From: Nocardioidaceae bacterium
GTDB lineage: Bacteria > Actinomycetota > Actinomycetes > Propionibacteriales > Nocardioidaceae
Direction: 5' to 3'
NCBI GenBank assembly: GCA_018672315.1
Contig: CP076053.1
Span: 2,529,827 to 2,593,826 of the forward strand
Length of the DNA: 64,000 nucleotides
The notes beneath the pieces are model-generated. The model worked only from the letters and a program-made list of their open reading frames with translations, made no database searches and was not told the DNA's origin. This document shows positions 6,910-30,493 of the stretch, in pieces. The position numbers and the translations under genes were made by a program. Numbering within the stretch: position 1 is the first letter of the stretch; each line of letters opens with the position of its first letter.

Positions 6910-8290
6910 CGCTCGTCAGTCTGCTCGACACCTCGGCCGCCGTCGCGCGGCCCGACCTCACGGCGCCCTCCATGTAGCCGGTCCACTCCGTCGCGTACTC
7001 CGACCCCGCCCAGTGGATCCGCCCGACCGGCTCGCGGAGCACCGGCCCGTAGCCCGTCCACGTGCCCGGCGTGAAGTGCGCGCCGTAGCAGCCACGCGTG
7101 AACTCCTCCGCGCCCCAGTCACGCTGGACGTACGCCACCGGGTTTGCGGCCCGCGGGCCGACGAAGCGGGCGAAGGCGTCCAGCACGCTCTGCCGTCGTG
7201 CGCCGGCCGGCAGGCGCTGCCAGATGCGGGCGTCGGTCGCCTCGATGAACCCCATCAGCACGCCGGGGGATCCGGGCGCGGGCCGACCGTCCGGTCCGTC
7301 CGGCGGGGAGACGTCGAAGGTGACCTTGACCGGTCCGCGGTCGCTGACTGCCTGGCCGTTGAGTCCGTCGTCGCGCCAGAACGGTGTCTCGTACGCCGCG
7401 AAGCACTTCGCCACCGCACCGGCCGGCGTGCGCTGGGTCAGCTGGTCGCGTGCTGCCGGCAGCGGAGGATCGACGACGAGCCGGGAGGACAGCACCAGGG
7501 GCATCGCGACGACCACCCTCCCGGCGGTCAGCGTCGCCCCGCCCCGCGTCGTGACCCGCACACCGATGTCGTCGTGCGCGATCGAGGCGACCGGGGTGGA
7601 GAGGCGTACGTCGAGCCCCTGCGCCAACCCGTGCGAGACCCGGTCGGACCCGCCGACGACCCGCGCCTCCTGCGCCCCCCGCTCGACCGAGAGCAGCGTC
7701 TCGAGGTCGGCGTTGGCGCGGGTGTACATCAACGCGTGCAGCAGCGAGAAGTCGCTCGCGTCGGCGGAGTAGATCGCCTCTGCCGCCACCCGGAAGTAGG
7801 TGCGTCCGGTCTCGGTCAGCAGGTTGCGGCGGATCCACGACTCCCACGTCTGCCCGTCGAGCACCGTCGCGTCGGGGTGCTCCCACGGCCGTGTCGCGTC
7901 GACGGTGCGCGCCAGCCGCTCGAAGCGCAGCAGCCCCTGGGCGAGGTCGGCGAGCACGAACGGGTTGAGCGGCGGCACGGCCCCCCGACGTGGCGACATC
8001 CGCTTCTGCTTCCCGCCGAGCTCGACGAGCAGGTCGCCGGTGTTGTGCGTCGGGAACGTCTCGAGGCCGAGCTCCTCGACCAGGGCGTACATCGCGGTGT
8101 GGCCGTGCCCGAGCCAGGTGCCACCGACCTCGACCGGTGCGCCGGCGAGGTCGAGTGTCTGCGTGCGCCCGCCGACGCGGTCGCGGGCCTCGAGCACGAC
8201 CACCGACCGTCCGGCGGCGACGAGTGCCCGGGCTGCGCTGAGGCCCGCGAGGCCCGCTCCCACCACGATGACGTCGGCGTCCACGCTCAT
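6902..8290 (-). CDS. Flavin monoamine oxidase family protein
   Basis: FAD-dependent amine oxidase (MAO/putrescine oxidase type) of 462 residues. The Rossmann FAD motif VIVVGAGLAGLSAARAL is at the N-terminus, followed by VLEARDRVGGRT and GGTWLGHGHTAMY; the C-terminal FAD and substrate region is WAGSEYATEWTGYMEGAVRSG in part. RGCYGAHF near the end corresponds to the place where mammalian MAO carries its flavin-linked cysteine, so covalent FAD is possible. ATG 8290 is preferred over an in-frame start at 8308 because GAGGG lies at proper distance. Substrate is unknown; putrescine or an aromatic amine are candidates. Confidence 0.9.
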   Translation of the reverse strand: MSVDADVIVVGAGLAGLSAARALVAAGRSVVVLEARDRVGGRTQTLDLAGAPVEVGGTWLGHGHTAMYALVEELGLETFPTHNTGDLLVELGGKQKRMSPRRGAVPPLNPFVLADLAQGLLRFERLARTVDATRPWEHPDATVLDGQTWESWIRRNLLTETGRTYFRVAAEAIYSADASDFSLLHALMYTRANADLETLLSVERGAQEARVVGGSDRVSHGLAQGLDVRLSTPVASIAHDDIGVRVTTRGGATLTAGRVVVAMPLVLSSRLVVDPPLPAARDQLTQRTPAGAVAKCFAAYETPFWRDDGLNGQAVSDRGPVKVTFDVSPPDGPDGRPAPGSPGVLMGFIEATDARIWQRLPAGARRQSVLDAFARFVGPRAANPVAYVQRDWGAEEFTRGCYGAHFTPGTWTGYGPVLREPVGRIHWAGSEYATEWTGYMEGAVRSGRATAAEVSSRLTSDV

Positions 8291-8409
8291 CGGCCGACCC
8301 TCGCACACATCGCTGTCCGATGAACGTGCACAACTGCGGTCGCGACGGCGAGGAGCTGCTCGCGGTGAGGTTGTGCCCGTTCGTCGGAGAGGTCCTCTAG
8401 CCTCCGCAG

Positions 8410-14574: not shown

Positions 14575-14889
14575 ATGGCAGGCGGCATGAACAAGCGAGG
14601 CAGCACGGGGCTGCCGATGGCGGAGCGCGTACGCCTCGGGCGCGACCCGGCGTCGACGCCGGCGTCACCACCCCCGACGCCGGCCTGCCCTGCCCGCCAC
14701 TGCTGGGTGCTCGACGCCGCCGACCACACGGGTGAGAAGCGCGCCGGGCTGCTGCTCGAGTGGCGCCGCGGGGCGGACGGCTGGGAGGGGCAGGTCGTCT
14801 ACCTCGTCCGCCGCGAGGGCCGCGGCTGGCTGGCGACCGTCGAGTGGTTCCCGGACTCCGCGCTGCAGGTCGCCGTCATCGACCCCTGA
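14575..14889 (+). CDS. Probable LexA-regulated small conserved protein
   Basis: 104 residues with no signal peptide. After a Pro/Ala-rich N-terminus comes a compact beta-rich core: HCWVLDAADHTGEKRAGLLL, then EWRRGADGWEGQVVYLV, and GWLATVEWFPDSALQV. I do not recognise a named family; small proteins of this look occur next to SOS mutasome genes (imuA/imuB/dnaE2) in actinobacteria, but none of those genes is here (recollection, not checked). ATG 14575 follows GGTGGGG; an earlier in-frame ATG (14533) would lie inside the LexA box. The perfect box upstream predicts DNA-damage induction. Confidence 0.72.
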   Translation: MAGGMNKRGSTGLPMAERVRLGRDPASTPASPPPTPACPARHCWVLDAADHTGEKRAGLLLEWRRGADGWEGQVVYLVRREGRGWLATVEWFPDSALQVAVIDP

Positions 14890-14898
14890 TCTCGCTCG

Positions 14899-15006
14899 GG
14901 TGGTCGAGGCGCGAGCCGATAGGCGAGCCGCTGCGGTGGTCGAGGTGGGAGCCGATAGGCGAGCCGCTCCGGTGGTCGAGGTGCGACCCGATAGGCGAGC
15001 CGCGAG
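14899..15006. repeat. Three tandem 36 bp repeats
   Basis: Units at 14899-14934, 14935-14970 and 14971-15006 share GGTGGTCGAGG at their start and CCGATAGGCGAGCCGC at their end, with a few substitutions. The unit is related to the dispersed GGTGGT(C/T)GAGG repeats at 15981, 17810 and 33149. The array begins 9 bases after a stop codon and fills the space between two convergent genes. Confidence 0.92.
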
Positions 15007-15336: not shown

Positions 15337-15564
15337 GTGGAGCAGATCCTTATCCGCAACCTCCCTGTCGGGACGAAGGCGGCGCTGCGCAAGCGCGCCG
15401 CACGAAATCACCGATCGCTGGAGGCCGAAGCACGCCATGCCCTCGCTGAGGCGCTGAGCGACGAACCTGCCACGATCGTCGACCTGCTGGGCACCGATGA
15501 GGGCGCGGACATCGACTTCGAGCCGGAGCGGCTGGGGCTGACGGCTCGATCAGCGCACCTGTGA
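15337..15564 (+). CDS. FitA-like ribbon-helix-helix antitoxin
   Basis: 75 residues. The N-terminal [19 protein letters not shown] followed by [17 protein letters not shown] is the ribbon-helix-helix fold of FitA/VapB antitoxins, which binds its own promoter. The C-terminal [20 protein letters not shown] tail is the expected toxin-neutralising part. GTG 15337 follows AAAGGAG at normal distance. The stop overlaps the toxin start (GTGA), the usual coupling in such pairs. Confidence 0.9.
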
Positions 15565-15986
15565 GGTATCTGCTCGACACCAACGTGGTCTCCGCGCTCA
15601 GAGTGCGCGGTCGTCATCCGGCGGTGGAGGGTTGGGCGGTGTCGGTGCCGCTCGAGGCTCAGTTCGTCTCGGCTTTCACCGTCGCCGAGATCGAGCGTGG
15701 CGTGGTCGCCAAGGAACGCGTCGACGCCAGCCAGGGGCTGGTGCTACGACGGTGGTTGGAAGCCAACGTCCTGCCTGCGTTCGCGGGGCGTGTGCTGCCG
15801 TTCGATCTGGCGGCCGCACGGATCCTGGCCGGCTACCGGGGCTCTGAGCACGCACCGTTCGACGACGCCCTCATCGCCGCGGTGGCCCAGGCCGCCGGCA
15901 TGGCGGTGGTGACACGGAACGTGCGGTACGTCGAGCCGCTCGGGGTGCCCGTCCTCGACCCGTGGACGGATCACCCCGACGGTTGA
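15561..15986 (+). CDS. FitB/VapC-like PIN-domain toxin
   Basis: 141-residue PIN-domain ribonuclease. The acidic metal-binding residues are in [11 protein letters not shown] (aspartate near residue 6), TVAEIERGV (glutamate near 42), PFDDALIAA (near 107) and [10 protein letters not shown] near the end. Family members cut tRNA or other RNA when the antitoxin is degraded. All acidic residues appear intact, so it should be active. Its stop codon is supplied by a dispersed repeat that begins at 15981. Confidence 0.92.
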
Positions 15987-16942: not shown

Positions 16943-17779
16943 TTAGCGCGCGTCCTTCGGCACCATCGCGAGCTGCCGTGCCTGGGCGACGAGCGTGCCG
17001 GCGGAGTCCCAGACCTCGGCGTCCTCCTCGAAGAGTCCGCCGGTCATGAAGCGGGTGGCGTGGCGTACGTGGAGGTGGCCCGGCGCGGGCTTGGCGCGCA
17101 CGTGCACGGTGAGCTCGACGGTCGGCGCCCACCCGGGGATGCCGAGGTCGAAGGTGGTGGGCACGAGGGCGTCGGCGGCGAGCAGCAGCGAGACCGCGTC
17201 CCAGTCGCGGCCGTCGGCGAGCGCGATCTGGGCCTGCAGCATGCCCTGTCCCGACGGCTTGCCGACGGCCCAGCCGATGCACGCGGGGTCGAAGCGCAGG
17301 TCGAGCCGGTGGGTCAGCGGCGGCTGCTCCGGTCCGCCGTCGGGAGCGGACTCGCGACCGAAGCAGTCCTCCGGCGACGGGATCGCCGGCTGCTCGCCGG
17401 CCAGGTGGGTCTCACCGGTCCACAGGTCGAGGTCGGTGTAGGTGGCGAGCACCCGCACCTTCTCGGTGCCGTCCTGGGACAAGGTCGCCGAGGCGACACT
17501 CGTACGCCCCCCGCGCCGGTGCACGTCGATGGTGATGTCGCACGGACCGTCGGTGCCCGGGGCGAGGTAGACGGCCGAGACCGAGAGCGGGTCAGGGTGC
17601 CTGTCGCCGAACAGGTCGGACAGGGCGGCGCCGATCACCGAGAGCACCGCTCCGCCGTTCACGGCGGCGCCGATGGACCAGGCGTCGCCGAGGGCACCTA
17701 CGTACGTCGCGCGCTCACCGCCCTCGCCTGTCGCACCGTCGGTGCGTCGGACGCGGGTCAGGTCGTCGTACTCGCTCAC
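16943..17779 (-). CDS. Acyl-CoA thioesterase family protein (TesB-like double hotdog)
   Basis: 278 residues with two hotdog halves. The N-terminal half contains WSIGAAVNGGAVLSVIGAAL and DPLSVSAVYLAPG; the second half has HRLDLRFDP, RDWDAVSLLLAADALVPTTF and VELTVHVRAKPAPG. This matches the actinobacterial thioesterase family (4HBT_3) rather than a characterised TesB. GTG 17779 (VSEYDD) is selected because homology begins there; the frame is open further upstream without similarity. The substrate is probably an acyl-CoA. Confidence 0.85.
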   Translation of the reverse strand: MSEYDDLTRVRRTDGATGEGGERATYVGALGDAWSIGAAVNGGAVLSVIGAALSDLFGDRHPDPLSVSAVYLAPGTDGPCDITIDVHRRGGRTSVASATLSQDGTEKVRVLATYTDLDLWTGETHLAGEQPAIPSPEDCFGRESAPDGGPEQPPLTHRLDLRFDPACIGWAVGKPSGQGMLQAQIALADGRDWDAVSLLLAADALVPTTFDLGIPGWAPTVELTVHVRAKPAPGHLHVRHATRFMTGGLFEEDAEVWDSAGTLVAQARQLAMVPKDAR

Positions 17780-17809: not shown

Positions 17810-17885
17810 GGTTGAGGAGGTCGCCGCTAGGCGGCCGTCTGCTCGGTGGTTGAGGAGTTCGCCGCTAGGCGGCCGTCTCGAAACC
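17810..17885. repeat. Two 38 bp copies of a dispersed palindromic repeat
   Basis: Copies start at 17810 and 17848. Both read GGTTGAGGAG then TCGCCGCTAGGCGGCCGTCT; the second is completed by CGAAACC, so its outer ends (GGTGGTT and AACCACC) pair and GCCGC-TAG-GCGGC forms an inner hairpin. The second copy encodes the last residues and the stop of the minus-strand regulator gene ending at 17865. Confidence 0.9.
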
Positions 17886-19478
17886 ACCCGGTGTGATCGC
17901 CGGCCCGAGCTCCAGCCACCAGCGAGCATGACCCGCCAGGGGATCACCGGCGCTCTGCGCGACGGTCATCAGACACGGCGACCCCGTCATGCCCGCGGCG
18001 AAGAGCGCTGCTCGTCGCAGGGTCTCCGACGTCGTCGCCAGCGCAGCGCTGATCGCCGGCGTGATGGTCTCGCCGTCGGCGCCGCAGCTGCCGAGGGCGT
18101 ACAGGAGTCGTACGCGGAGGTCCTCAACCGTGTCCTCCCGCAACGACCGCTCCTGCATGAGAGCGACGTGCTCCGTGGTGGCGAGGGCGCTCATCGCGCT
18201 GGCGGCCTGGGCGGCGATGACGGGCTCCGGGTGCTCGAGCAGGCCGGCGAACTCGTCCGCGACGGCGGTCCTGTACGGGCTGGCGGCCAGCAGGATCGCA
18301 GCGCGTCGCCGACGGGCCTGGTGGCCGTGGAACAGCGCCTCGCGGACGAGGCGGTGGAGCATCTCGTCCGGTTCCACCGCTCGGTTCTGCGCTGTGGCGT
18401 CCTGGATGCGGGGCACGCAGTCCTCGAGAACGCTGAGCACGCGGGAGCGGGGCAGCACCTGGCCGTGACGCAGCACCGCCTCGAGTCGTCGCCTCTGGTC
18501 GCCGGCTGCCGCGGCGGCGCGCAGGCGGTCCAATGCCTTCGGCGGCATCCGGGCGATGACGTCGGTGATCTCGACGTGCGCGTCGGGCGCCCCGCCGAGA
18601 CGCGCGTGCATGAGTCTCTCGAGGTCACCGGTGATCTCGGGCTCGAGGTGACCGCGAGCCAGCGCGGCGGCGGCCGCCCAGCCGGCGCCGTAGCGGATTG
18701 GGTCGGACCCCTGCGCCAGCATCTTCAGGATGAGGCGCTGCGCCTTGCGGTGCTTGACCTCTCCGAGCAGCGTCAACGCGGGGGCGACCGACTGGGCGTG
18801 GGGATCGGTGAGGAAACGACCGATCGCCCTGAGTCCGGCACGCCGTCCGCGTGGCGTCGCGAGAAGCACGCGCATCGCCTCGTAGCGGGCGGTGAACTCG
18901 TGCTGGGTCGCTCGTACGGTCTCGCGCAGCAGCTCGTCGGTCAGGTCGGCCCACAGCTGCGGCGGGAGATAGACCGATTCGTACGTCGCGAGCGTCTCGG
19001 CCAGGCGCAGCCACGCACCACCGTCGAGGCCGCCTTCCGCGCGGGCCGAGAAGATTTCGTCGAGGGTGTCGTCGGCCGCCGGCCCGTCGACGACAGGGTT
19101 CTCCCGAGTCGCAGGCTCGAGCGACGCTGCGTGACAGATCAGGTGCCCCTGGGGCAGACCGCACAGCTCCTCGTACGCTGCCACCGCCGTCCGCGGCACG
19201 GGCAGGCCACCGGACTCCCAGCGCGAGAGGCGCGCCTGGTCGCAGGTCACTCCGACGTCGCGCAAGGCAGAACCGAAAGCTCGCCGCGAGCTGATCGGTG
19301 GGGGAGCGGCGTACACGCGGCAGGCCGCGAGAAGCCATCCGAACCGCGTGCGCTCCCCACCGTCGGTGGCCGTGATGGGGGTGGGGTCGTCAGGAAATCT
19401 GAACGGTCGACCTCGGCCGCGGTTCGGCGGCGCCGTAGACGCCAGGGGCTGCCGGGGGTCCGAGTTCGACCAGTTCAC
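17865..19478 (-). CDS. XRE-type regulator with long alpha-helical repeat region (R1)
   Basis: 537 residues, cytoplasmic, no named family recognised. After a short Pro/Arg-rich N-terminus (RGRGRPFRFPDD) comes GERTRFGWLLAACRVY and a helix-turn-helix of XRE type ending in DQARLSRWESG (about residues 45-95). The remaining 400 residues are Ala/Leu-rich helical pairs like HEAT repeats, with the block PDEMLHRLVREALFHGH near residue 390. R2 (23339-24919) shares all of these. GTG 19478 is preferred since GGGAG lies 5 bases upstream; TTG 19535 is possible. It is divergent from P1, which it probably controls. Its C-terminus and stop lie in a dispersed repeat. Confidence 0.82.
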   Translation of the reverse strand: MNWSNSDPRQPLASTAPPNRGRGRPFRFPDDPTPITATDGGERTRFGWLLAACRVYAAPPPISSRRAFGSALRDVGVTCDQARLSRWESGGLPVPRTAVAAYEELCGLPQGHLICHAASLEPATRENPVVDGPAADDTLDEIFSARAEGGLDGGAWLRLAETLATYESVYLPPQLWADLTDELLRETVRATQHEFTARYEAMRVLLATPRGRRAGLRAIGRFLTDPHAQSVAPALTLLGEVKHRKAQRLILKMLAQGSDPIRYGAGWAAAAALARGHLEPEITGDLERLMHARLGGAPDAHVEITDVIARMPPKALDRLRAAAAAGDQRRRLEAVLRHGQVLPRSRVLSVLEDCVPRIQDATAQNRAVEPDEMLHRLVREALFHGHQARRRRAAILLAASPYRTAVADEFAGLLEHPEPVIAAQAASAMSALATTEHVALMQERSLREDTVEDLRVRLLYALGSCGADGETITPAISAALATTSETLRRAALFAAGMTGSPCLMTVAQSAGDPLAGHARWWLELGPAITPGGFETAA

Positions 19479-19737
19479 GAGGGCTCCCGAGCGCCGAGGA
19501 TTGCTTGCGTACGAGCCGGGCAAGACACGGTTCAAGCCCTGGCGTACTTATTTGTTTCACAGGTCCGTCTTGGCATGCAACTACTGCCGGTATCCGCCGT
19601 GCCGCCCCTAGCGTCGAGCGCGGTCCGCAGGCCTTGCCGTCTGCGGACCCTCCTGGGGCGATGTTGAACCTGCCCCGGGGGATCAGCTCCGCGGGGGAAG
19701 GCCCCGTGGAGAGGACTCCACGAAAGGGAAATCCTCC
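19479..19737. promoter_or_regulatory. Divergent promoter region between R1 and P1
   Basis: 259 bases with no gene. It holds ATTTGTTTC (19550-19558) and TTGGCATGCAACT (19570-19582), both echoed in the R2-P2 region, so they may be promoter or operator elements. A hairpin with a 9 bp stem (19622-19649) and a 6 bp hairpin (19706-19721) fall in the likely 5' leader of P1. The second ends at the CGAAAGGG ribosome binding segment. No convincing -10/-35 pair was fixed. Confidence 0.5.
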
Positions 19738-22700
19738 ATGGCAAGCAGCGGCATCAAGCGGGGACTGGCCTCAACGGCCGTCGCCGCACTCGCAGTCTCC
19801 GGCTTCCAGGGCGCTTCGTACGCCCAGCCGGCAGCCGGCAACGACGGCTTCTACACCGCCAACCAGATCGCACTGCTGTCGCAGAGCGAGGGTGTGGCCT
19901 CGACCCAGGGCGACGAGACGGTCCGCCTCGAGGCGGGCGCCGGCGCCGGGACCTCGTCGGTGACGTTCCAGTACAACACCGGCAACCCGGACGTCTGGGT
20001 CGACATCGCGACCGTCGCCGAGCGCAACGACAACGGCTTCTTCTCCTTTGAGTGGGACCCGTCGCTGCCGAACGGCACCACCGTCGACCTGCGGGTCATC
20101 CGCACCGGCACGAACGCCGCTGGTCAGACCCTCGTGGCGAACAACCCGGCCGGCAACGTGCTCCTCACCGGTGACCAGCCGACGGTCGACATCACCGATG
20201 GTGAGAACCTCTCGTACTTTCTCAGCGGCGGTGGCAACTTCGTCGTCTCTCTGAGCGGCACCTCCAGCGCCGACGCCGGCTCCGCTGTCGTGGTCACCTC
20301 GCCGGTCCCCGGCGTCTCGGTCGCGTCCAACAACGGCAACGTCACCGTCGACGAGGACGGCACCTGGTCCGGTTCGTTCACCGTGTCGGGTTACAACCGC
20401 GCCGGCACGCCCGACCAGATCGCGTTCGTCGCGACGCTGGGCGACAACACCGACGACGACGTCGAGGCGTTTGAGCTTCAGCAGGGCACCCTCAGCATCG
20501 CAGCAGTGGCGGCTGACAACGACTTCGACAGCCAGAACGTCTCCGCCGGTGGCACCTACGACGTGACGATCACCGTCACCGACGGCACCAACCCGGTCGC
20601 TGGCATCCAGGTCGACTCGCAGAACACCGGCTCCACTGGTGTCACCAACGAGGCCGGTCAGGTGACTCTGCAGCAGCGCGACGCCACGACCGACCGCTAC
20701 TTCACGGACCTCAACGGCAACGACGCTTTCGATAGCGCGACCGAGGTGCGTACCGACGAGGTCACGACCCCAGCGGGCGACGCCCCCGAGACCGACTCGC
20801 TCGAGGCGACTTCCGACGATGGTGCCGCCTTCGACTTCGACGAGTACAACGGCAACTTCGTCTCCGGCAACGGCGACAACACCAGCACGGACGAGGGCTC
20901 GGAGTCCGAACTCACGGTCCAGATCCTCGATCAGAACGGTCAGCCCACGTCGCCGCAGGGGGACCAGGAGCTGCACTACCGCTGGAACTTCACCCCGGCG
21001 GACGGTGGCGAGACAGTTCAGTACCCGGCTGAGGACGCGGACCCGGACTACTACGTCAACGAGGACGACGACAACGGTCAGTACGAGGTCGGTCTCCCGC
21101 AGATCGACGGTGACGCCGACGGCACGTACGTGTTGAGCGCGGCCCTGACCGGCGACACCATCAACGGCACGGGCAACAACCCGGAGTCGGGTTTCATCGA
21201 CTACACCAACGTGTTGACGGTTGAGGCGGGCGAGTCCACCCTCGAGATCAACCCCGGCGGCGGCGAGAACGGTGAGGTCGAGGCCGACGCTGGCGACTCG
21301 CAGGCATTCACCGCGACGCTGGCGCTCGAGTCCGGCACGGAGCTGCCGAACCGCGACATCGACGTGACCTACGAGCAGGGCAATGAGTTCGCCCCGGGTG
21401 ACGGCACGGCCGACTCCGGCCTCGTGCAGGGCAACAACCTGGTCCAGTCGTTGAGCCTGACAACGGACGAGTCCGGGGTGGTGTCTTTTACCGCCCGCGA
21501 CCCCCAGACGGCCGACGCAGACGACCAGGGCGCCGAGCTCGACAACATGATCACCGCCGCCACGGCCGACACCGACGAGTCGGACATCAACCCCGACGGT
21601 GACGGCGACGAGACCAGCAACGCCGACGAGTCGGACGAGGTCGAGCTCGACTTCACGTCCGACAACTCGGTCAGCAACCTCGGCCTGAACGACCCTGACG
21701 ACGGCGCGGCAGCCGGTGAGATCGTGACCTACACCGCCACGGTGAACACCACCGCCGGCAACCCGGTCGCCGACGGCACCGAGGTCACCTTCACCACCGA
21801 CCAGGGCTACTTCACCGAGGACACCACGGTTGACGGCGAGGAGGGTGAGTACGACTCCGAGGGTCAGACCATCACGGTCGAGACCGTGAACGGCGTCGCC
21901 ACTGCCTACCTCACCATCGGGCAGAACGACGGCTTCAACGATGACGGTCTCGTCGACGCCGATGTGACGGCCACCAGCGCCGGGTCCTCGGACTCCGACG
22001 ACTACCAGTTCGACAGCAGCGACCCGCTCAACGGGTCGGCCGTCGAGCTGGTCCGCTCGGCGGACCAGGACTCGGACAACGAGAACGGCGCCCAGGCGAC
22101 GTTCGACACGGTCGCGTTTGAGGTCATCGCGCGTGACCAGTTCGGCAACCCGGTCGGCGGCGCCGAGGTCGACATCGACGCCACAGGCAACGTCTCGGTC
22201 GACACCGACGACGACACGCCTGCTGCCGGAGAGGTGCCTGCGCAGGAGAACGGCACGGTCATCACGGACTTCGTCGACGACGAGGACGTCGTCATCGACG
22301 CCAACGCCGCCGAGGACATCACCTCGACGGTTACGGCGACGTGGAACTACAGCGAGGCCGGCGAGGACGACAACACCGACTTCACCGACACCGCCACGGC
22401 CGAGTTCTACGCGATCGACTACGACAACGGCGTCTACACGCTCACCAACAACGCGGGTGACGACAACACGGTCGAGCCGGGCACCCCGGTCGTGGAGACC
22501 TTCACGGCCGTCGACCAGTTCGGCGAGAACATCGAGAACGTGTTCGTGCAGTTCTTCCGCACGGGTCCGGACACCCAGCAGGACGGTGGTCAGGTCGCTC
22601 AGGGCCAGACCGGTCCCGACGGCGCGATCTCGTACACGTTCATCGGCACCACGGAGGGCCAGGCGACTGTGTCCACCGTCGGTTACGAGGACGACGCCAC

Positions 22701-23073
22701 CGGCGCGCCGATCGATGGTGCGACGCTGACCGACACCGTCACGTTCGGTGAGGACGAGGAGGTGAACCCCGGCTTCGACCCGAACCGTCGCCCCGAGCTG
22801 TCGCTCCGCGGTCGCAACAACGGCGGCAAGGCTGACCGTCTGTTCATCAAGGGCTCGAACTACTCCCGCGGTGGCACGATCAACCTGTTCAAGACGGGTC
22901 TGAAGAACCGTCCTCGGGTGTTCGTCGGTCAGAAGACCTCGAACCGCTTCGGCAATGTGCGGTTCCGGGTGGCGGACAACAACCGCAAGCGGTTCACCCA
23001 GTACCGGGCCTTCATCCGCCCGGACGAGGGCAACTACCGCCGTGCGGCGTCGAACCGTCGTCAGGTCCGTTGA
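19738..23073 (+). CDS. Giant secreted multi-module beta-sandwich protein (P1), S-layer- or adhesin-like
   Basis: 1111 residues. Signal peptide 1-29 (cleavage after ASYA), then about eight Ig/Big-1-like modules to residue 1015, for example GGTYDVTITVTDGTNPVAGI and GEIVTYTATVNTTAGNPVADG. A module with AFDFDEYNGN (about 350-500) and one with ALESGTELPNRDIDVTY (about 500-640) recur in P2, P3 and P5. The ectodomain is strongly acidic, has no cysteine, and has no lysine from residue 8 to 1030. The last 95 residues are the opposite, with 26 Lys/Arg and 5 Asp/Glu, and contain FGNVRFRVAD; the protein ends RRQVR. No LPXTG or transmembrane anchor. P2 is a full-length paralogue. Surface-layer protein or adhesin is inferred. 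Confidence 0.82.
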   Translation: MASSGIKRGLASTAVAALAVSGFQGASYAQPAAGNDGFYTANQIALLSQSEGVASTQGDETVRLEAGAGAGTSSVTFQYNTGNPDVWVDIATVAERNDNGFFSFEWDPSLPNGTTVDLRVIRTGTNAAGQTLVANNPAGNVLLTGDQPTVDITDGENLSYFLSGGGNFVVSLSGTSSADAGSAVVVTSPVPGVSVASNNGNVTVDEDGTWSGSFTVSGYNRAGTPDQIAFVATLGDNTDDDVEAFELQQGTLSIAAVAADNDFDSQNVSAGGTYDVTITVTDGTNPVAGIQVDSQNTGSTGVTNEAGQVTLQQRDATTDRYFTDLNGNDAFDSATEVRTDEVTTPAGDAPETDSLEATSDDGAAFDFDEYNGNFVSGNGDNTSTDEGSESELTVQILDQNGQPTSPQGDQELHYRWNFTPADGGETVQYPAEDADPDYYVNEDDDNGQYEVGLPQIDGDADGTYVLSAALTGDTINGTGNNPESGFIDYTNVLTVEAGESTLEINPGGGENGEVEADAGDSQAFTATLALESGTELPNRDIDVTYEQGNEFAPGDGTADSGLVQGNNLVQSLSLTTDESGVVSFTARDPQTADADDQGAELDNMITAATADTDESDINPDGDGDETSNADESDEVELDFTSDNSVSNLGLNDPDDGAAAGEIVTYTATVNTTAGNPVADGTEVTFTTDQGYFTEDTTVDGEEGEYDSEGQTITVETVNGVATAYLTIGQNDGFNDDGLVDADVTATSAGSSDSDDYQFDSSDPLNGSAVELVRSADQDSDNENGAQATFDTVAFEVIARDQFGNPVGGAEVDIDATGNVSVDTDDDTPAAGEVPAQENGTVITDFVDDEDVVIDANAAEDITSTVTATWNYSEAGEDDNTDFTDTATAEFYAIDYDNGVYTLTNNAGDDNTVEPGTPVVETFTAVDQFGENIENVFVQFFRTGPDTQQDGGQVAQGQTGPDGAISYTFIGTTEGQATVSTVGYEDDATGAPIDGATLTDTVTFGEDEEVNPGFDPNRRPELSLRGRNNGGKADRLFIKGSNYSRGGTINLFKTGLKNRPRVFVGQKTSNRFGNVRFRVADNNRKRFTQYRAFIRPDEGNYRRAASNRRQVR

Positions 23074-23087
23074 TCTGAGGGCTGCGC

Positions 23088-23152
23088 GGTCAGCTTCGCG
23101 CTGACCATCCGTCCCAGAGGTGGGGCGGCCCCCGGTTCCGGCCGGGGGCCGC
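23088..23152 (+). terminator. Two hairpins behind P1, second a strong terminator
   Basis: The first hairpin pairs GGTCAGC (23088-23094) with GCTGACC (23100-23106). The second has a perfect 11 bp GC stem (23125-23135 with 23142-23152) and a TTCCGG loop, but no T-tract. Both recur behind P2. The first keeps its stem there while its loop differs. The second may also stop R2 transcription from the other strand. Confidence 0.78.
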
Positions 23153-23270
23153 TTCGCCCACCTGGGTCGGCTCCAGTTCCTTGACGGGGGCTGGACCTGC
23201 TCAAACTGGGTCCACGATCGCGGCCCGGGGCACCTCGCGACGCCGCTGCCGTGAGGAGTCCCGGGTCGCT
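23101..23270. repeat. 170 bp direct repeat, copy 1
   Basis: Identical at every base to 28541-28710. It includes the terminator stem and about 110 further bases without an evident gene. With copy 2 it brackets the 5.4 kb R2-P2 unit. Confidence 0.97.
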
Positions 23271-23338
23271 CCCGTGTTCCTGCACTCGCCCCGGGTGCCT
23301 CCCATTGACGAGGCATCCGGGGTTCGTGCTGTCTGGAC

Positions 23339-24919
23339 TCAGCGTTGCTCGAAGATTCCCGCGCCGGAGACTTGCCACCATCCCGCTTGCGCTCGGTGCG
23401 GGCCAGGCGTGTGCGCCAGTTTGCTCAATACGGAGGAGCCGTTCATGCCGGCCGCGTACATGCCGGCGCTCTGCGTACGTCCTGAGGACGACTGGATGCT
23501 CTCTGAGGTGAGTACCTCGTCCACTCCGACGCCGCAGCGCACGACAGCGCGAAGCGCGAGAGCGCGTACGCGGCCGTGGCTCCACGTGTCCACGAGGGCG
23601 ACCAGCCGTTGGCTCTGCTCGGGCCCCGCCCACCAGCACAACGCGCTGAGGAGTCGCTCGTCCACGTCCTCGCCGTACTCGCCGAGACAGCTTAGGGCGG
23701 CCTCGGCCAAGGCGTTGCGGTACGACGACGACATGACCGTGGTCATTGCCAGATAGCGGCGCTCGGCGTGCCCGTGGAACAGCGACTCACGGACGAGTCG
23801 GTGCAGCATCTCGTCGGGTTGGATCCCGCCCTCAACGGGTGCCATGGACGACAGCGTGTGCGAGACGAGCGGCTCGACGACCTCGAGTGAACGGGCCGCA
23901 GGGACTTCTTCGCCCGTACGCTTCACCGCCATGATGCGCTCTCGCTCGGGCCTATTGCGCTGGTCGAAGAATCGTTGGCCGGGGAGCGCGGAGAGACGCG
24001 CGGCCACATCGACGAGGGCGCGGGCCTTCGATGCCTGACCGTCCAGCGCCGCAACACGTCGTTCGATCATCATGCGCGTCTCGGCGCAGAGCGAGGGCGA
24101 GCTCAGTGTGTGCGCGAGAGCCCAAGCGGCGCCGTCGCGCCGGTTGTGGTCCTCAGAGGTGAGCATTCGCAGGGCTACGGCGCTCGCGTGTGCGTGCTCG
24201 GTGTGGGCGAGGATAGAGACGACCTCTGGTGTCACCGGCGAGGCCCACGAGCTGACGACGTTCTCGAGAGCATCAAGCACGGCAAACGTCGTCGGTCGAT
24301 GTCCTGCGAGCATCTTCAGCGCAGCTCGTCGCGCGACGAACTCGCTCCCGGTGGATCGCATGAGCTCGTCGGTCAGCCGTCCGGTGAGTCGTTCACGCTC
24401 GACGGGGGAGAGATAAAGACCAGGCATGCGGGTGAGCAGGTCAGCAAGCCGGAGCCACTCGAGTCCAGTGATGACGGTCCAGCTGCCACTCAGCTTGTCG
24501 AAGCGGGCGTCGAGGTCGGCGCGCGCTTCGTCAGAGTCTTGGGCGCCGTGGGTGTCGGGCATTACCGCGGAGAGCGCGTACGCGGCCGGCACCAGGGGGT
24601 CGGTGGCGCGGTCTGCGAGTGACGCGTACGCCTCAAGCACCCGCACGTTCGGCGCCGCCGACCCGGATTCCCACCGACTCAGACGAGCTTGGTCGGACGC
24701 GATGCCGATGGAGCGCAGGTGCTCGGAGAGGTCGACGCGGCGCGCGAGATGCGCCGGAAAGGCGTAGAGACGGGTCGTCGCCAGCAACCAGCCGAAGCGG
24801 GTCTGCTCGCCCCCGCGAGTCGCTGTCAGCGGCGTCTGGTCGCTGGGGAGGGAGAACGGTCTGCCCCGCGGGGGCTTTGGACGTTGGGACGGATCCGCGT
24901 CAGCGCTGCCGACACCCAC
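23339..24919 (-). CDS. XRE-type regulator with long alpha-helical repeat region (R2)
   Basis: 526 residues, paralogue of R1 over its whole length. Shared blocks are RGRPF, TRFGWLLATTRLYAFPA, DQARLSRWESG (helix-turn-helix, about residues 38-90), PDEMLHRLVRESLFHGH (about 400) and MYAAGMNGS near the C-terminus. Between them the sequence is clearly diverged, so the duplication is not recent. GTG 24919 is well placed, 8 bases after a perfect AGGAGG. It is divergent from P2 and convergent with P1. The helical part may sense a wall or envelope signal or bind a ligand; this is inference, since no sensor family is recognised. Confidence 0.85.
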   Translation of the reverse strand: MGVGSADADPSQRPKPPRGRPFSLPSDQTPLTATRGGEQTRFGWLLATTRLYAFPAHLARRVDLSEHLRSIGIASDQARLSRWESGSAAPNVRVLEAYASLADRATDPLVPAAYALSAVMPDTHGAQDSDEARADLDARFDKLSGSWTVITGLEWLRLADLLTRMPGLYLSPVERERLTGRLTDELMRSTGSEFVARRAALKMLAGHRPTTFAVLDALENVVSSWASPVTPEVVSILAHTEHAHASAVALRMLTSEDHNRRDGAAWALAHTLSSPSLCAETRMMIERRVAALDGQASKARALVDVAARLSALPGQRFFDQRNRPERERIMAVKRTGEEVPAARSLEVVEPLVSHTLSSMAPVEGGIQPDEMLHRLVRESLFHGHAERRYLAMTTVMSSSYRNALAEAALSCLGEYGEDVDERLLSALCWWAGPEQSQRLVALVDTWSHGRVRALALRAVVRCGVGVDEVLTSESIQSSSGRTQSAGMYAAGMNGSSVLSKLAHTPGPHRAQAGWWQVSGAGIFEQR

Positions 24920-25175
24920 TCGCCGTACCTCCTGCTAACCGCCGCCCGAGTCGACGGCTGGGATCCCGAAACTGCTGAAGTCTGGCGGTTGCAAACGCAA
25001 ACATCCAAGCGATTTGTATCTTGACATTCGATTGTGCAACTCGGGCGCAACGCGTGTCTCCCGTACCTACGGTCGCGAATGGTCGACGCCTAGCCTGCGC
25101 CGACCCCGGTCCTCTCGGGACCGGACCAACCCCGGTGGGACACACCCGCCGGGAGGACCGAAAGGGAAATCCTTC
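24920..25175. promoter_or_regulatory. Divergent promoter region between R2 and P2
   Basis: 256 bases with no gene. TTGCAAACGCAA (an inverted TTGC/GCAA pair), ATTTGTATC (25012-25020), TTGACAT (25021-25027) and TGCAACT (25035-25041) cluster upstream; the last three have counterparts before P1. A hairpin at 25106-25124 (7 bp stem CCGGTCC/GGACCGG) lies in the likely leader. From 25159 the sequence CGAAAGGGAAATCCT is identical to that before P1. Confidence 0.5.
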
Positions 25176-28100
25176 ATGGCAAGCAGCGGCATCAAGCGGG
25201 GACTGGCCAGCACGGCCGTCGCCGCTCTCGCAGTTACCGGCGCACCCATGCTCGCGGGCGTGGCCAACGCCGTCCACGAGACCAAGGTGATCAGCCAGTA
25301 CACCGGCCTCGCCTCCATCAAGAACGATGGTCAGAACACGACGATCCGTCTCGAGGCGGACAGTGCAGCGCAGGCCGGCACTACGACGCGGTTCGAGTAC
25401 CGCATCGCGGCAGCCGCGGGAGCAACCGAGAACCCGTGGCAGACCATTGCCACCGTGGACCGGAACGACGACGGCTTCTTCTCCTTCGAGTGGGCGACCA
25501 CCCTGGTCGGCGTGACCGTCGACCTTCGCGCCGTCGGCATCAGCCCCACCGGTGTCGAGGACCCGAACGCGGAGGTCCGCGAGGACGTCCAGATCGTCGG
25601 ACAGGGCCAGGCCGCTGAGTCGGTCAACCTGAACGAGGCCTCGCAGGCTGGTGTCTTCCAGCAGCCGAACTACGACACCACGGAGAACGGCTTCAACGTC
25701 ATTGTCTCCGGCACCACGTCGGCCACCGGCGGCGACGTGACCGTGTCGCGATACACCGACACCACGTCCACCGGCGAGCCCACCCGTCCCACCGGCGTGC
25801 AGACGGGTGAGCAGGACTTCGCGGTCACGGCCGCTGATGGCGCCACCACCGGAACCTTCAAGGGCGTGTACGACCTCCGTGAGGGCGACGCGCCCTACAA
25901 CTTCGCCGCCCAGGACCCCGACTTCGTTGCCCTCGGCGCCGAGCGCGACTCCGACGACGTGGAGGGCTACACCCTCTACCAGCAGACCATCACCACCGTG
26001 ACCGCCACGGCCAACCGCACCAACGTGCCGATCGGTCAGACCGCGAACGTCACGGTCACCGTGACCGACCAGAACGGCAACCCGATCGCTGGCGCCGAGG
26101 TGCTCGACAGTGGCGCCAACGGGACCACGACCTCGAAGTTCACCAACGCCGACGGCCAGGTGACCTACACGCAGGGCAACGGCACCGAGTTCTACTACGC
26201 GAACGCGACGGACTCGGACCCCTTCGAGGCGACCCGCGGCGACGTGCGCTCGGACAACGTGACCGTCAGCGAGTTCCAGCAGGCCCCGAGCTCGCTGCAG
26301 TTCGTGTCCTCCGACGGCTCGGCCTTCGACTTCGACGAGAACCAGGCCGACGACCTGTACGTGCAGGTCAAGGACCAGAACGGCAACAACCTCAACACCG
26401 ATAGCCAGACGGTCGACTACTACTACGAGTTCACGCCTTTCAGCGCGACCTCGACCACCCGGCGCTTCCCGACCACGGGCACCTTCACGGCCATGGAGAC
26501 CGACAGCGGTCGTTACAACTTGGCCCTGCCGCCCGGTGCCGAGTCCGGCACCTACCGGGTCTTCGCGGACCTTAACGAGCGGCCCGTCACGGGTGGCCAG
26601 GGCATCGCGAACAGTCAGGTCGGCAGCTTCAAGGCCGGTCAGGCGACGCTGTCGTACGACCAGAGCGCACCCGTGCAGTCCACCGCGGGCGGCGAGACCA
26701 CCGTCTCCGGTGAGCTCTCGCTCGAGGACGGCACCGGGTTGCCGGCACGCGGTGTCCAGCTCGACTACGCCGAGGATGCCTCCACCGGTGGCACCGACGC
26801 GCAGAGCGCCGCGTTCAACCAGCCCAACAACGCCGCCGGGCAGCCTCAGGCCGACGCGCGCAGCATCGACCTCACCACCGACGGCAACGGCACCTTCTCC
26901 GCCGTCCTCGACGACCCGGCCGCTCCGGCGAACACCGCCGCCGCGGACGAGACCGGAACGGTCACTGCGTCGACCGAGGACCGCATCACCACCACGACGG
27001 GCAACGAGCCCGACGGTGACCCGAACGCTGCGGACCGGACCCTCCAGGTGCAGTTCCTCGCCAACGGCACCACCCCCGCCACGGTGGTGATCAGCGGCGG
27101 CGATGCCGATGACGAGGTGGCTGGCGAGCTGGAGACCTACACGGTGACCGTGCGCTCCGCCAACGACCCGGCCACTGCGGCGGACGAGTCGCGCCTCCTG
27201 TCCAACCAGCAGGTAACCCTGACCACCACCGACGGGTACTTCACCGACGGTGTGCCGCAGGGTGCCGCGGGCGACGACACCGGTGTGTTCGACAACGACG
27301 GCCAGACCAAGACCGTGACCACCAACGGTGCCGGTCAGGCGACGTTCTCGATCGCGATCGGTCGCGATGAGGGCTTTGACGACGACGGTCAGGTGGACGC
27401 GACGATCACCGCGACGTCCGGCAGCGCGTCTGACACCCAGGCACAGGGCTTCACGTCTGAGAACCCGATTAACGCAGGCGAGATCACCCTCGAGTTCGAC
27501 GACAGCACCTCGGACTCGAGCAACCTGCCGCAGGCTCAGCAGGGTGACCAGGTGAACTTCCTGGTGAAGACCTTCGACCAGTTCGGCAACCGCGTCGGTG
27601 GCGAGCCGTTCTCGATCACGAGCAACAACCCGGACTCAGACGCTTTCGAGCGGACCGGGACGACGGACTACGACGAGCGCTTCGACGCGACCCTCGACTC
27701 GACCTCCGGTGAGGACGAGACGGTCACCGTCAGCTGGACCAACGACCGCAGCACGCTGGCGGCCGATGGAGGGGACGCCGGCACGGCGCCGGACACTCAG
27801 TACCGCAATGCCGAGGAGACGGTGACCGACGCTCTGACGGTCAACTTCTACGCGATCGACTACGCCAACAGCACCTTCACGCTGGAGAACAACACCGGCG
27901 ATCAGGCGACTGTCGGTGAGACGGTTACTGAGACGTACACTGCTCTCGACCAGACCGGTGAGCCGATCGACGACCTGTACGTCGAGTTCTTCCGCAACGG
28001 TCCGGGCAACTCGGAGGACCGTGGCAACGGTGACTTCGATGGCTTCACTGGTGCCGACGGCCAGATCTCGTACGTGTTCACCGGCCAGGCCGCTGGCGAT

Positions 28101-28514
28101 GCGACCGTGACGGCGATCGGCCGGAGCGGACGCAGCATCGACTTCAACGGTGAGGGTGACCCGGGCACGGTCCAGCCGGCATCCCAGGTCAGCGACACGG
28201 TGACCTTCGGTGCCGGTGGCGGTGTCCAGGACCCGACGATCACGCTGAAGGGCCGCAACAACGGCGCCAAGGCGGACCGTCTCCTGGTTCAGGGCCCGCG
28301 CTACACGGCCGGCGGCACGGTCCGTCTCTTCAAGACGGGTCTCAAGAACCGGCCGCGTCAGCTCGTCGCGGTGAAGCAGTCCAACCAGTTCGGCAACGTG
28401 CGCTTCCGCGTGGCCGACCGCAACCGCAAGAAGTTCACCCAGTACCGCGCCTTCCTGGCGCCGTCCGCTGGTGAGTACAACCGCGCGGTGTCGAACCGTC
28501 GTCAGGTCCGCTGA
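25176..28514 (+). CDS. Giant secreted multi-module beta-sandwich protein (P2), paralogue of P1
   Basis: 1112 residues, one more than P1. The first 19 residues of the signal peptide are identical to P1; the next part ends in GVANA. Module order matches P1: GFFSFEW N-terminal domain, Big-1-like GQTANVTVTVTDQNGNPIAG, the AFDFDENQAD module, LSLEDGTGLPARGVQLDY, further Big-1-like domains, and a basic C-terminal domain with LFKTGLKNRPRQ and FGNVRFRVADRN that ends RRQVR. There is no cysteine. The body is diverged in sequence while the ends are nearly the same, as expected for cassette-like exchange or strong constraint at the ends. An in-frame start upstream (25014) is rejected because the duplicated SD and signal peptide begin here. 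Confidence 0.82.
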   Translation: MASSGIKRGLASTAVAALAVTGAPMLAGVANAVHETKVISQYTGLASIKNDGQNTTIRLEADSAAQAGTTTRFEYRIAAAAGATENPWQTIATVDRNDDGFFSFEWATTLVGVTVDLRAVGISPTGVEDPNAEVREDVQIVGQGQAAESVNLNEASQAGVFQQPNYDTTENGFNVIVSGTTSATGGDVTVSRYTDTTSTGEPTRPTGVQTGEQDFAVTAADGATTGTFKGVYDLREGDAPYNFAAQDPDFVALGAERDSDDVEGYTLYQQTITTVTATANRTNVPIGQTANVTVTVTDQNGNPIAGAEVLDSGANGTTTSKFTNADGQVTYTQGNGTEFYYANATDSDPFEATRGDVRSDNVTVSEFQQAPSSLQFVSSDGSAFDFDENQADDLYVQVKDQNGNNLNTDSQTVDYYYEFTPFSATSTTRRFPTTGTFTAMETDSGRYNLALPPGAESGTYRVFADLNERPVTGGQGIANSQVGSFKAGQATLSYDQSAPVQSTAGGETTVSGELSLEDGTGLPARGVQLDYAEDASTGGTDAQSAAFNQPNNAAGQPQADARSIDLTTDGNGTFSAVLDDPAAPANTAAADETGTVTASTEDRITTTTGNEPDGDPNAADRTLQVQFLANGTTPATVVISGGDADDEVAGELETYTVTVRSANDPATAADESRLLSNQQVTLTTTDGYFTDGVPQGAAGDDTGVFDNDGQTKTVTTNGAGQATFSIAIGRDEGFDDDGQVDATITATSGSASDTQAQGFTSENPINAGEITLEFDDSTSDSSNLPQAQQGDQVNFLVKTFDQFGNRVGGEPFSITSNNPDSDAFERTGTTDYDERFDATLDSTSGEDETVTVSWTNDRSTLAADGGDAGTAPDTQYRNAEETVTDALTVNFYAIDYANSTFTLENNTGDQATVGETVTETYTALDQTGEPIDDLYVEFFRNGPGNSEDRGNGDFDGFTGADGQISYVFTGQAAGDATVTAIGRSGRSIDFNGEGDPGTVQPASQVSDTVTFGAGGGVQDPTITLKGRNNGAKADRLLVQGPRYTAGGTVRLFKTGLKNRPRQLVAVKQSNQFGNVRFRVADRNRKKFTQYRAFLAPSAGEYNRAVSNRRQVR

Positions 28515-28528
28515 CCTGACGGCTGCGC

Positions 28529-28592
28529 GGTCAGCGTGAGCTGACCATCCGTCCCAGAGGTGGGGCGGCCCCCGGTTCCGGCCGGGGGCCGC
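28529..28592 (+). terminator. Two hairpins behind P2
   Basis: GGTCAGC (28529-28535) pairs with GCTGACC (28540-28546) around a GTGA loop; behind P1 the same stem has a TTCGC loop. The second stem (28565-28575 with 28582-28592) is the same 11 bp GC hairpin as behind P1. Confidence 0.78.
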
Positions 28593-28710
28593 TTCGCCCA
28601 CCTGGGTCGGCTCCAGTTCCTTGACGGGGGCTGGACCTGCTCAAACTGGGTCCACGATCGCGGCCCGGGGCACCTCGCGACGCCGCTGCCGTGAGGAGTC
28701 CCGGGTCGCT
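28541..28710. repeat. 170 bp direct repeat, copy 2
   Basis: Identical at every base to 23101-23270. It fills nearly half of the only gene-free stretch above 300 bases (28515-28880). Confidence 0.97.
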
Positions 28711-28727
28711 TCCCGTGTCCCACCCAC

Positions 28728-28880: not shown

Positions 28881-30128
28881 ATGCCCCGTCGTACGCCCCG
28901 CTTGGTCGCTGCGCTGTCCGCCGCCGCCCTCGTGACCTCACCGCTGTCCTTGACGGCCACCGCCGAGACGTCGGACGACTTCGACCTCTTGCTGTCGTCG
29001 CGCGACGCAGCCGCGTTCGACTTCGCGGAGTACGACGGGCCCGGTTCGTACGACACCTCCGTCGCGGTCGTGAGCCGCAGCGGACGGGGGTTCTCCGATG
29101 AGCGCGCGCCTGACGGGGCCGAGGTCCGCTACTACTGGACCATCAACCCGTTCGACCCCTCGGCCGAAGAGATACGGGTGCCAGACACCGAGGGCTCCTT
29201 CGAGGTCAACGACGACCCCCGATACACCGGCGACGGCGACGCACTCGGCGGTGACATCTTCGACGTGCCGTTCCCGGCACAGCAGGCCGTACCTGGTGTC
29301 CACACCCTCCACGCCACCCTCGTCACGCCCGCTAATGAAGCCGAGACGGCGGCGCAACCGCCGTACGCCGCCATCGACAGCGTCACTGCCGGCAACGCCG
29401 CGCTGACGCTCGACCAGGACGAGCTGGTCGCCGACCTCGAGGAGGTCGTCCGCATCAGCGGCACGCTCGCCCTCGAGGACGGCACCACCCTGCCGCGTCG
29501 ATTCATCAGCCTCGACTACACGCCCGCGACCGACCGTGGCGCCAGGTCCGCGACCTTCCTGCCGTACTCGTACGCGACCCGCCCCCTGCGAGCGCGCACG
29601 AGCACCGGTCGCGTGACCGATCGCGACGGCATCTTCGAGGCCTACCTCGCCGGGAACGAAAGGACGCCGTGCGAGTCCACCGCGGTGGCTGAGTCGGGCA
29701 CCCTGTCCGTCGCTGCCGAGCAGATCCCGGTCGACAGCCCATTCCTCCGGGGCGACCTGCCATGGTCCACGGTGCAGGGGGACTTGTACGCCCCGGGCGA
29801 CCCCGTTCCCACACAGTTTGGCCAGGCCTCGGACGACCCGCCCGCCCCCGTGCACCCCTTGTTGTCGCTACGCGGGCGAAGCAACGGCGCCCAGGACGAC
29901 TTCATGCTCGCCAAGGGCGGTCGCCTCATCGCGGGTGAGGTCGTCCGTCTCTACCGCACGGGACTCGGCCGGGGCCGCCAGCTTGTCGGCCGGGACCGCG
30001 CCGGTTACCGCGGCAACGTCGGATTCACGGTGCCGGACCGCAACGGCCGACGACCCGCCACGTACCGCGCCGTGATGCACGCCGGCGCGGCGTGCACTGT
30101 CCCCTCGAACCGTCAGCGCATCCGATGA
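28881..30128 (+). CDS. Secreted reduced paralogue of P1/P2 (P3)
   Basis: 415 residues. Signal peptide 1 to about 28 (ending ATA). It keeps three modules of P1/P2 in the same order: AAAFDFAEYDG with YYWTINPFDP (about 40-165), ALTLDQDEL with TLALEDGTTLPRRFISLDY (about 170-290), and the C-terminal domain from LLSLRGRSNGAQ to SNRQRIR. All Big-1-like modules between them are missing. The C-terminal domain is less conserved than in P1/P2 and holds a cysteine (AACTVPS). P4 starts on its stop codon (ATGA). Function is unknown; probably wall- or surface-associated. Confidence 0.78.
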   Translation: MPRRTPRLVAALSAAALVTSPLSLTATAETSDDFDLLLSSRDAAAFDFAEYDGPGSYDTSVAVVSRSGRGFSDERAPDGAEVRYYWTINPFDPSAEEIRVPDTEGSFEVNDDPRYTGDGDALGGDIFDVPFPAQQAVPGVHTLHATLVTPANEAETAAQPPYAAIDSVTAGNAALTLDQDELVADLEEVVRISGTLALEDGTTLPRRFISLDYTPATDRGARSATFLPYSYATRPLRARTSTGRVTDRDGIFEAYLAGNERTPCESTAVAESGTLSVAAEQIPVDSPFLRGDLPWSTVQGDLYAPGDPVPTQFGQASDDPPAPVHPLLSLRGRSNGAQDDFMLAKGGRLIAGEVVRLYRTGLGRGRQLVGRDRAGYRGNVGFTVPDRNGRRPATYRAVMHAGAACTVPSNRQRIR

Positions 30129-30493
30129 GGGCGCGCATCGCAACAGCCATCGCCACGGTCGGACTCGTCACCAGCGCATCGGGAGCGTACGCCCTCTCGC
30201 CGTTGCCAACGCCCTACCTGCAGCTGCGGGCAGAGCACAACGGCGCGCGCGCTGACGTCCTCGTTGTGAAAGCACCCCGCTACACCGCGGGCGGCACCAT
30301 CGACCTGTTCCGCACGGCTTCGCCCGGCAAACTGCGCTGGCTGATGGACACCAAGACGTCCAACAAGCACGGCGACGTGCGCTTCCGCGTCAAGGACCGG
30401 AACGGCGCCGAGGCCACCGAGTACCGCGTCGTCCTCCGCGCCGCCGAGGGGGACTACCCACGCTCGGTCTCGAACAAGAGGCGGGTCCGATGA
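30125..30493 (+). CDS. Secreted minimal paralogue: signal peptide plus C-terminal domain (P4)
   Basis: 122 residues. The signal peptide (about 1-24, ending AYA) is followed almost directly by the basic C-terminal domain: LQLRAEHNGARADVLVVKAP, RYTAGGTIDLFRT, TSNKHGDVRFRVKDRNG, and the end SNKRRVR. Nothing else is present, which shows that this domain is a stand-alone folding unit. ATG overlaps the stop of P3. It could compete with or cap the anchoring sites of P1/P2 (inference). Confidence 0.82.
   Translation: MRARIATAIATVGLVTSASGAYALSPLPTPYLQLRAEHNGARADVLVVKAPRYTAGGTIDLFRTASPGKLRWLMDTKTSNKHGDVRFRVKDRNGAEATEYRVVLRAAEGDYPRSVSNKRRVR

Follow-up and report, generated by a model that had tools for sequence, protein, structure and literature searches.

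A probable variable secreted-protein locus with its own regulator, carried as two paralogous modules in a Nocardioidaceae bacterium

The body of a surface protein encoded in the Clostridioides difficile S-layer cassette (the slpA region) is exchanged by recombination between lineages (PMC7677006) while its flanks stay in place. Bacillus anthracis keeps two paralogous large secreted S-layer proteins, Sap and EA1, in one genome and can switch between them (PMC8056022). On the regulatory side, XRE-family proteins often act as autoregulatory dimers on palindromes (PMC12565409). Here we describe a locus of a Nocardioidaceae bacterium that is reminiscent of each of these systems without belonging to any of them. 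We consider it probable that this locus encodes a variable secreted protein, P, together with a private regulator, R, and that it is represented in this genome by two paralogous modules; its core, a dedicated regulator-operator-secreted-protein module with a replaceable body, is well supported. Nocardioides is a common soil genus, and it gains a candidate coat or adhesin locus; among open-licence papers we found none on a Nocardioides S-layer or on such a Nocardioides locus.

The genome is a single contig of 3.6 Mb, and we analysed a 64-kb stretch of it (the window) in which genes were called with a codon-usage-based caller (Table 1). Exactly two R genes are present in the genome. R1 and R2 are 35% identical and have in common the segments DQARLSRWESG and PDEMLHRLVRE(A/S)LFHGH, while P1 and P2 align from end to end with 43% identity and have their domains in the same order. 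The positions of these four genes, their twin R/P architecture, the two R motifs, and the lengths and equal module order of P1 and P2 had all been given in the initial annotation, and were borne out by the gene calls and alignments. The start of R1 is uncertain, as a TTG codon gives 556 residues and a GTG at 19478 gives 537. Directly 3' of P2, beyond the coordinates annotated initially, lie three further genes for secreted proteins (P3, mini P and P4) that have the C-terminal domain in common; the start of mini P overlaps the stop codon of P3 (ATGA).

Table 1. Features of the two R-P modules and their surroundings (window coordinates).
Feature	Coordinates	Strand	Remarks
Thioesterase-like gene	16943..17779	-	name assigned by eye, without a profile; found next to the module in most relatives
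R1	17865..19535	-	XRE-type HTH + HEAT/ARM-like solenoid regulator (gene call, Pfam, model)
Module 1 proposed operator	19552..19583		TTGTTTCA-N16-TGCAACTA; score 13/16; no other site this good in the window
P1 proposed -10 box	19609..19614	+	TAGCGT; distance from the operator exactly 25 nt
P1 5' UTR hairpin	19622..19649	+	perfect 9 bp, GGTCCGCAG...CTGCGGACC
P1	19738..23073	+	secreted, ~10 beta-sandwich (Ig-like, Big_1-type) domains, 1111 aa
P1 conserved leader DNA element	19744..19769	+	AGCAGCGGCATCAAGCGGGGACTGGC, in the signal-peptide codons
P1 3' flank	23076..23280	+	terminator-like hairpin at 23125-23152
R2	23339..24919	-	R1 paralogue, 526 aa
Module 2 proposed operator	25011..25042		GATTTGTA-N16-TGCAACTC; right half-site conserved, left half-site weak
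P2 proposed -10 box	25068..25073	+	TACGGT; distance from the right half-site exactly 25 nt
P2 5' UTR hairpin	25106..25124	+	perfect 7 bp, CCGGTCC...GGACCGG
P2	25176..28514	+	P1 paralogue, 1112 aa
P2 conserved leader DNA element	25182..25207	+	identical to that of P1
P2 3' flank	28517..28721	+	
P3	28881..30128	+	secreted, 415 aa; internal P module + shared C-terminal domain, without the conserved leader
mini P	30125..30493	+	signal peptide + C-terminal domain only, 122 aa
P4	30513..31811	+	secreted, 432 aa; internal P module + diverged C-terminal domain

The AlphaFold model of R1 (pLDDT 89.8) is helical throughout and comprises an N-terminal domain of DNA-binding type followed by a HEAT/ARM-like solenoid. 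The stretch of ~400 residues of helical repeats noted initially is thus real, and Pfam likewise reports HEAT_2 in R1, together with weak XRE-type HTH matches. The nearest structures are alphaRep and other HEAT/ARM chains. Across the family, HEAT_2 was found in 29 of 52 members, identifying an alpha-solenoid of HEAT repeats with paired helices, and 20 of the 52 gave HTH_31 or HTH_3 matches that did not reach the curated cut-off. The N-terminal domain is helical with an invariant W-E-x-G and a nearly invariant S-R, which identifies it as an XRE-type HTH. R therefore resembles XRE-family autoregulators in this domain and in a palindrome upstream of its own gene, but where those regulators have a small sensor domain it has the ~400-residue solenoid, which may serve as a sensor or as a protein-binding arm. 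Our search of open-licence papers returned none on XRE-HEAT regulators, and R is a regulator of an undescribed type.

We searched 342 Nocardioidaceae genomes with R and P profiles and retrieved the neighbourhoods, in which genes were predicted with the same codon-usage-based caller. Divergent R-P pairs occur 45 times, in 42 genomes of six genera, and in every pair the P partner is secreted and bears the near-invariant leader MNSSGIKRGLAxxAVSALAVxGLP. In a tree of 85 R-type proteins, all 43 full-length linked R proteins fall inside one group of 53. The other ten members of that group comprise two at contig edges, five with a leader gene that lies within a few kilobases of R but is not divergently adjacent, and three that are unlinked. 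None of the 32 R-type proteins outside the group is linked. The expectation that R homologues would always stand divergent from a secreted gene consequently failed for the wider XRE-HEAT family, which is mostly unlinked, but applied nearly without exception to one clade; there the pairing is genuine and conserved, and it comes with a palindromic site confined to the pair. In 395 genomes of the class outside the family, the P profile returned only distant Ig-like matches, and the three of these that we inspected lacked R beside P.

Most relatives carry a single R-P module, and the twins in genomes G212 and G213 arose separately. The initial annotation had taken the twin layout to mean two maintained alternatives; judging from the sequences, the R1/P1 and R2/P2 arrangement is probably, though not certainly, a duplication in this lineage, which here keeps what would be two bodies. 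We considered whether the grouping of R1 with R2 was a long-branch artefact and rejected this, as the grouping stays (97) under a mixture model. Placed in the tree alone, either protein falls near G032/G034/G122.

A dyad was built from the most enriched words in the 45 R-P intergenic regions. It takes the form of a palindrome, TTATTGCA-N15/16-TGCAACAA, followed after 24-26 nt by a TAnnnT -10 box, and lies mostly 132-161 nt from the P start. Dyad scores of at least 13/16 were obtained for 29/45 intergenic regions compared to 8/900 shuffles; part of this scoring used the set in which the motif had been discovered. The dyad is missing from most unlinked R homologues. Two results are independent of the discovery set. 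At no more than 2 mismatches, the site occurs exactly once per genome in 21/21 R-bearing genomes scanned, always at R-P, and is present in only 1 of 17 R-lacking genomes, which were picked mostly for carrying P-type genes; the reversed control never matches. Furthermore, in G215 (locus L160) a rearrangement has separated R from the leader gene, and each has its own dyad (8283-8314 and 14708-14739), lying 82 bp upstream in one case and 117 bp in the other. Not all linked loci have the site: a clear dyad of this form is absent at L142, L146, L155, L156 and L158.

These findings bear on the question of whether R and P are linked by position only, in which case the dyad would belong to another regulator or to R alone. 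The locus of the module is indeed conserved, the same thioesterase-like gene lying next to it and appearing from gene order to mark its fixed chromosomal place, and some loci without P (L153) keep the dyad at R. Yet in G215 the dyad accompanies both genes after their separation, and it is missing from 16/17 R-lacking genomes, even though these were mostly chosen for P-type genes. We regard a purely positional link as improbable and favour R as a dedicated regulator of P, with a predicted one-site regulon that is directly testable.

Under this regulatory reading, a dimer of R would bind the single palindromic operator of the R-P intergenic region through its N-terminal HTH. Counted from the presumed start site of P, this operator covers roughly -69 to -38; it borders the -35 region on the upstream side and is also near the R start. 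The dyad centre accordingly falls at about -53, a place usual for activators and not for steric repressors. This location suits activation of P, and the closeness of the operator to the R start suits autorepression of R, such that R would activate P and restrain its own synthesis from one site. The alternative is that R represses both P and itself until released by a signal, with P being a growth-phase or stress protein whose variability reflects ordinary fast evolution, such as exposed proteins undergo, without a special exchange route. The operator centre is of activator type and does not lie where a steric repressor would be expected, which argues against the regulatory half of this alternative; its evolutionary half is taken up below. 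In its favour, autoregulation by dimers bound to palindromes is frequent among XRE regulators (PMC12565409).

In module 2, the candidate operator scores 10, which alone is not above chance, and its conserved right half lies at 25035-25042. The recognition-helix segments of R1 and R2 are identical, and their sites have the right half TGCAACT in common; on these sequence grounds, cross-talk between module 1 and module 2 is likely. The initial annotation had proposed alternative coats, each with its own switch. The conserved pairing, the private site and the adhesin- or S-layer-like character of P are in keeping with part of that proposal, but the common recognition helix and TGCAACT half-site render separate switches doubtful. 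A further recurrent word, AGTAAAGA / TCTTTAC, is found near or inside the dyad in the intergenic regions of L133-L139, L143-L148, L151 and L155-L158, and is possibly the site of a second factor.

The 5' UTRs are on average more structured than shuffles (mean z -1.55), with modest covariation. A single consensus RNA structure for all 45 UTRs was weak, the hairpins differing between subclades, and a search of Rfam with the window stretch and six relatives gave no match to a known RNA family.

The model of P1 (pLDDT 79.9) is a string of ~10 beta-sandwich domains after a signal peptide. Of the profiles matched by the P family, Big_1 is the most frequent: it occurs in tandem and matches 30 of the 33 members, with a best E of 4e-18; P1 and P2 themselves are below the curated Big_1 cut-off. 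R-linked P proteins are acidic, mostly with a pI of 4.1-4.7, and almost always cysteine-free, a composition that is usual for surface-layer and adhesin-like proteins and proves neither. Codon bias gave no clear sign of very high expression of P. As modelled, P looks like an adhesin or an S-layer-type chain of Ig domains. The signal peptide would export it, and P is probably located at the cell surface, which it would form or decorate.

It could instead be a released factor, such as a trap resembling Ig-chain or macroglobulin proteins, or a competition protein. Foldseek searches with P1 listed alpha-2-macroglobulin and complement Ig chains, as such a factor would lead one to expect, but after realignment the top structures were invasin and intimin (invasin 1cwv, Z 12.8). 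Consistent with release, Pfam scans and a sequence check found no LPXTG, SLH, CWB2 or other known wall-binding domain and no PS2-type hydrophobic C-terminal stretch in P, and R-linked P proteins have no second membrane segment. On the other hand, a basic C-terminal domain is common to P1, P2, P3 and mini P, as expected of an attachment module, with mini P consisting of that domain only, and P bodies vary as exposed surface structures do. We judge a released factor to be a possible but doubtful reading and retain a surface location as the more probable fate of P. A second body type is encoded by the R-linked leader genes of L155, L156, L158 and L169, whose products are ~870-906 aa long and end in Ala/Asp/Gln-rich coiled-coil-like repeats.

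P is similar to adhesins of the invasin/intimin (Big_1) type in its tandem Big_1-like beta-sandwich domains and in its best realigned structures. In contrast to those adhesins, its host is Gram-positive, an outer-membrane barrel is lacking, and it ends in a C-terminal domain other than invasin's lectin-like tip. Since P1 consists of a signal peptide and then beta-sandwich domains, with neither barrel nor tip, we did not class P as an invasin. The likeness to Sap/EA1 is that two paralogous large secreted proteins are kept in one genome, but no SLH anchor was found in P, and each P has its own divergent XRE-HEAT regulator. As in the C. difficile cassette, relationships among bodies are incongruent with those of the flanking genes and homology boundaries are sharp. 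In contrast to that cassette, the R-P exchange is between species and not within one, no sequence kinship was seen, and the R-P locus, known from sequence, does not imply a crystalline layer. To our knowledge, a dedicated adjacent HTH-solenoid regulator is not part of the C. difficile system. Because neither a known domain for wall anchoring nor a C-terminal hydrophobic stretch was found in P, we assigned the R-P locus to neither the C. difficile cassette nor Sap/EA1.

Replacement of the P body between species is a more striking feature of this locus than the twin layout. In sister species with R proteins 83-94% identical, conservation extends over the promoter, the 5' UTR and the codons of the signal peptide, yet the mature P is in some cases unrelated. 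Loci L151 and L156, for example, have 88% identical R proteins and 87% identical DNA from the intergenic region through P codon 30, past which only short scattered matches are found until identity returns to 80% over the last 200 bp compared. One of these P proteins is a 1071-residue Ig chain, and the other has 866 residues with a coiled-coil-like end. Identity breaks at the same codon in L125/L130. In a set of 19 non-independent sister pairs, codons 1-30 are 93% identical in ungapped DNA comparison, and the two windows that follow give 48% and 39%, an immediate fall to chance-like values. A body frequently has its best match elsewhere than in the R-nearest relative: the R proteins of L131 and L134 are 91% identical, yet their bodies rank 36th and 11th for each other, and L151, whose R-nearest relative is L156, has a body 68% identical to the L144 body.

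Some sister pairs do diverge gradually, as ordinary fast evolution would have it (L147/L157: R 84%, body 77-80%). The non-homologous bodies of L151/L156, and bodies that are nearer to distant relatives than to sisters, instead point to replacement by recombination or import and not to fast drift alone. Together with the position of the operator, this leads us to view a repressed growth-phase or stress protein evolving in the ordinary way as somewhat unlikely. We favour a model in which the promoter, structured 5' UTR and signal-peptide codons would act as a fixed expression cassette, downstream of which the mature body is swapped from lineage to lineage, with recombination through the conserved leader and the 3' region as the probable route. 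Such replacement would be as expected for an exposed protein facing phages, predators or competitors. Should phages or predators use the P body as a receptor, the locus could account for differences in host range in Nocardioides; it represents an example of leader-anchored secreted-protein replacement outside pathogens.

Within this genome, the edges of the two modules carry a related footprint. P1 and P2 are 92% identical over 83 bp around the start and 97% over the 205-bp 3' flank, far above the genes, with divergence in between, and the flank has no other copy in the genome. This pattern suggests recent conversion or exchange between the P1 and P2 copies at their edges. The genome likewise has the 26-nt leader element nowhere but at P1 and P2; we checked this element as a candidate second operator, and it is non-palindromic. 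In R-adjacent P genes, Arg8 is encoded by CGG in 39/44, and GGC is avoided at Gly9 (6/45 versus 67% expected), with p-values that ignore kinship. The constancy of AGC-AGC in the leader is partly explained by the serine codon barrier. Leader DNA and 5' UTR features may serve message stability, translation or body exchange. As for an invertible or site-specific switch, no recombinase-like gene was seen by eye in the locus, and its inverted repeats are weak and probably due to chance.

A bolder version of this model would make R-P a dedicated diversification device of the Nocardioidaceae, in which leader DNA and 3' flank serve as homology arms for exchanging P bodies among the modules already present and DNA arriving from outside, and the regulator with its HEAT solenoid senses the envelope state, perhaps P itself or phage attack, and so sets which body is made. 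We offer it as speculation and think it rather unlikely.

Several minor observations were made alongside. Other XRE-HEAT clades (L009, L038-L061, L172-L179) occupy recurrent chromosomal places of their own, where the neighbours look like, for example, oligoribonuclease, FAD oxidoreductase and dehydrogenase-complex genes. In the window, a gene pair at 15337-15986 resembles, by eye, a FitA-type antitoxin and a PIN-domain toxin, and a 36-bp unit is present at 14893-15003 in three tandem copies that are 90-92% alike.
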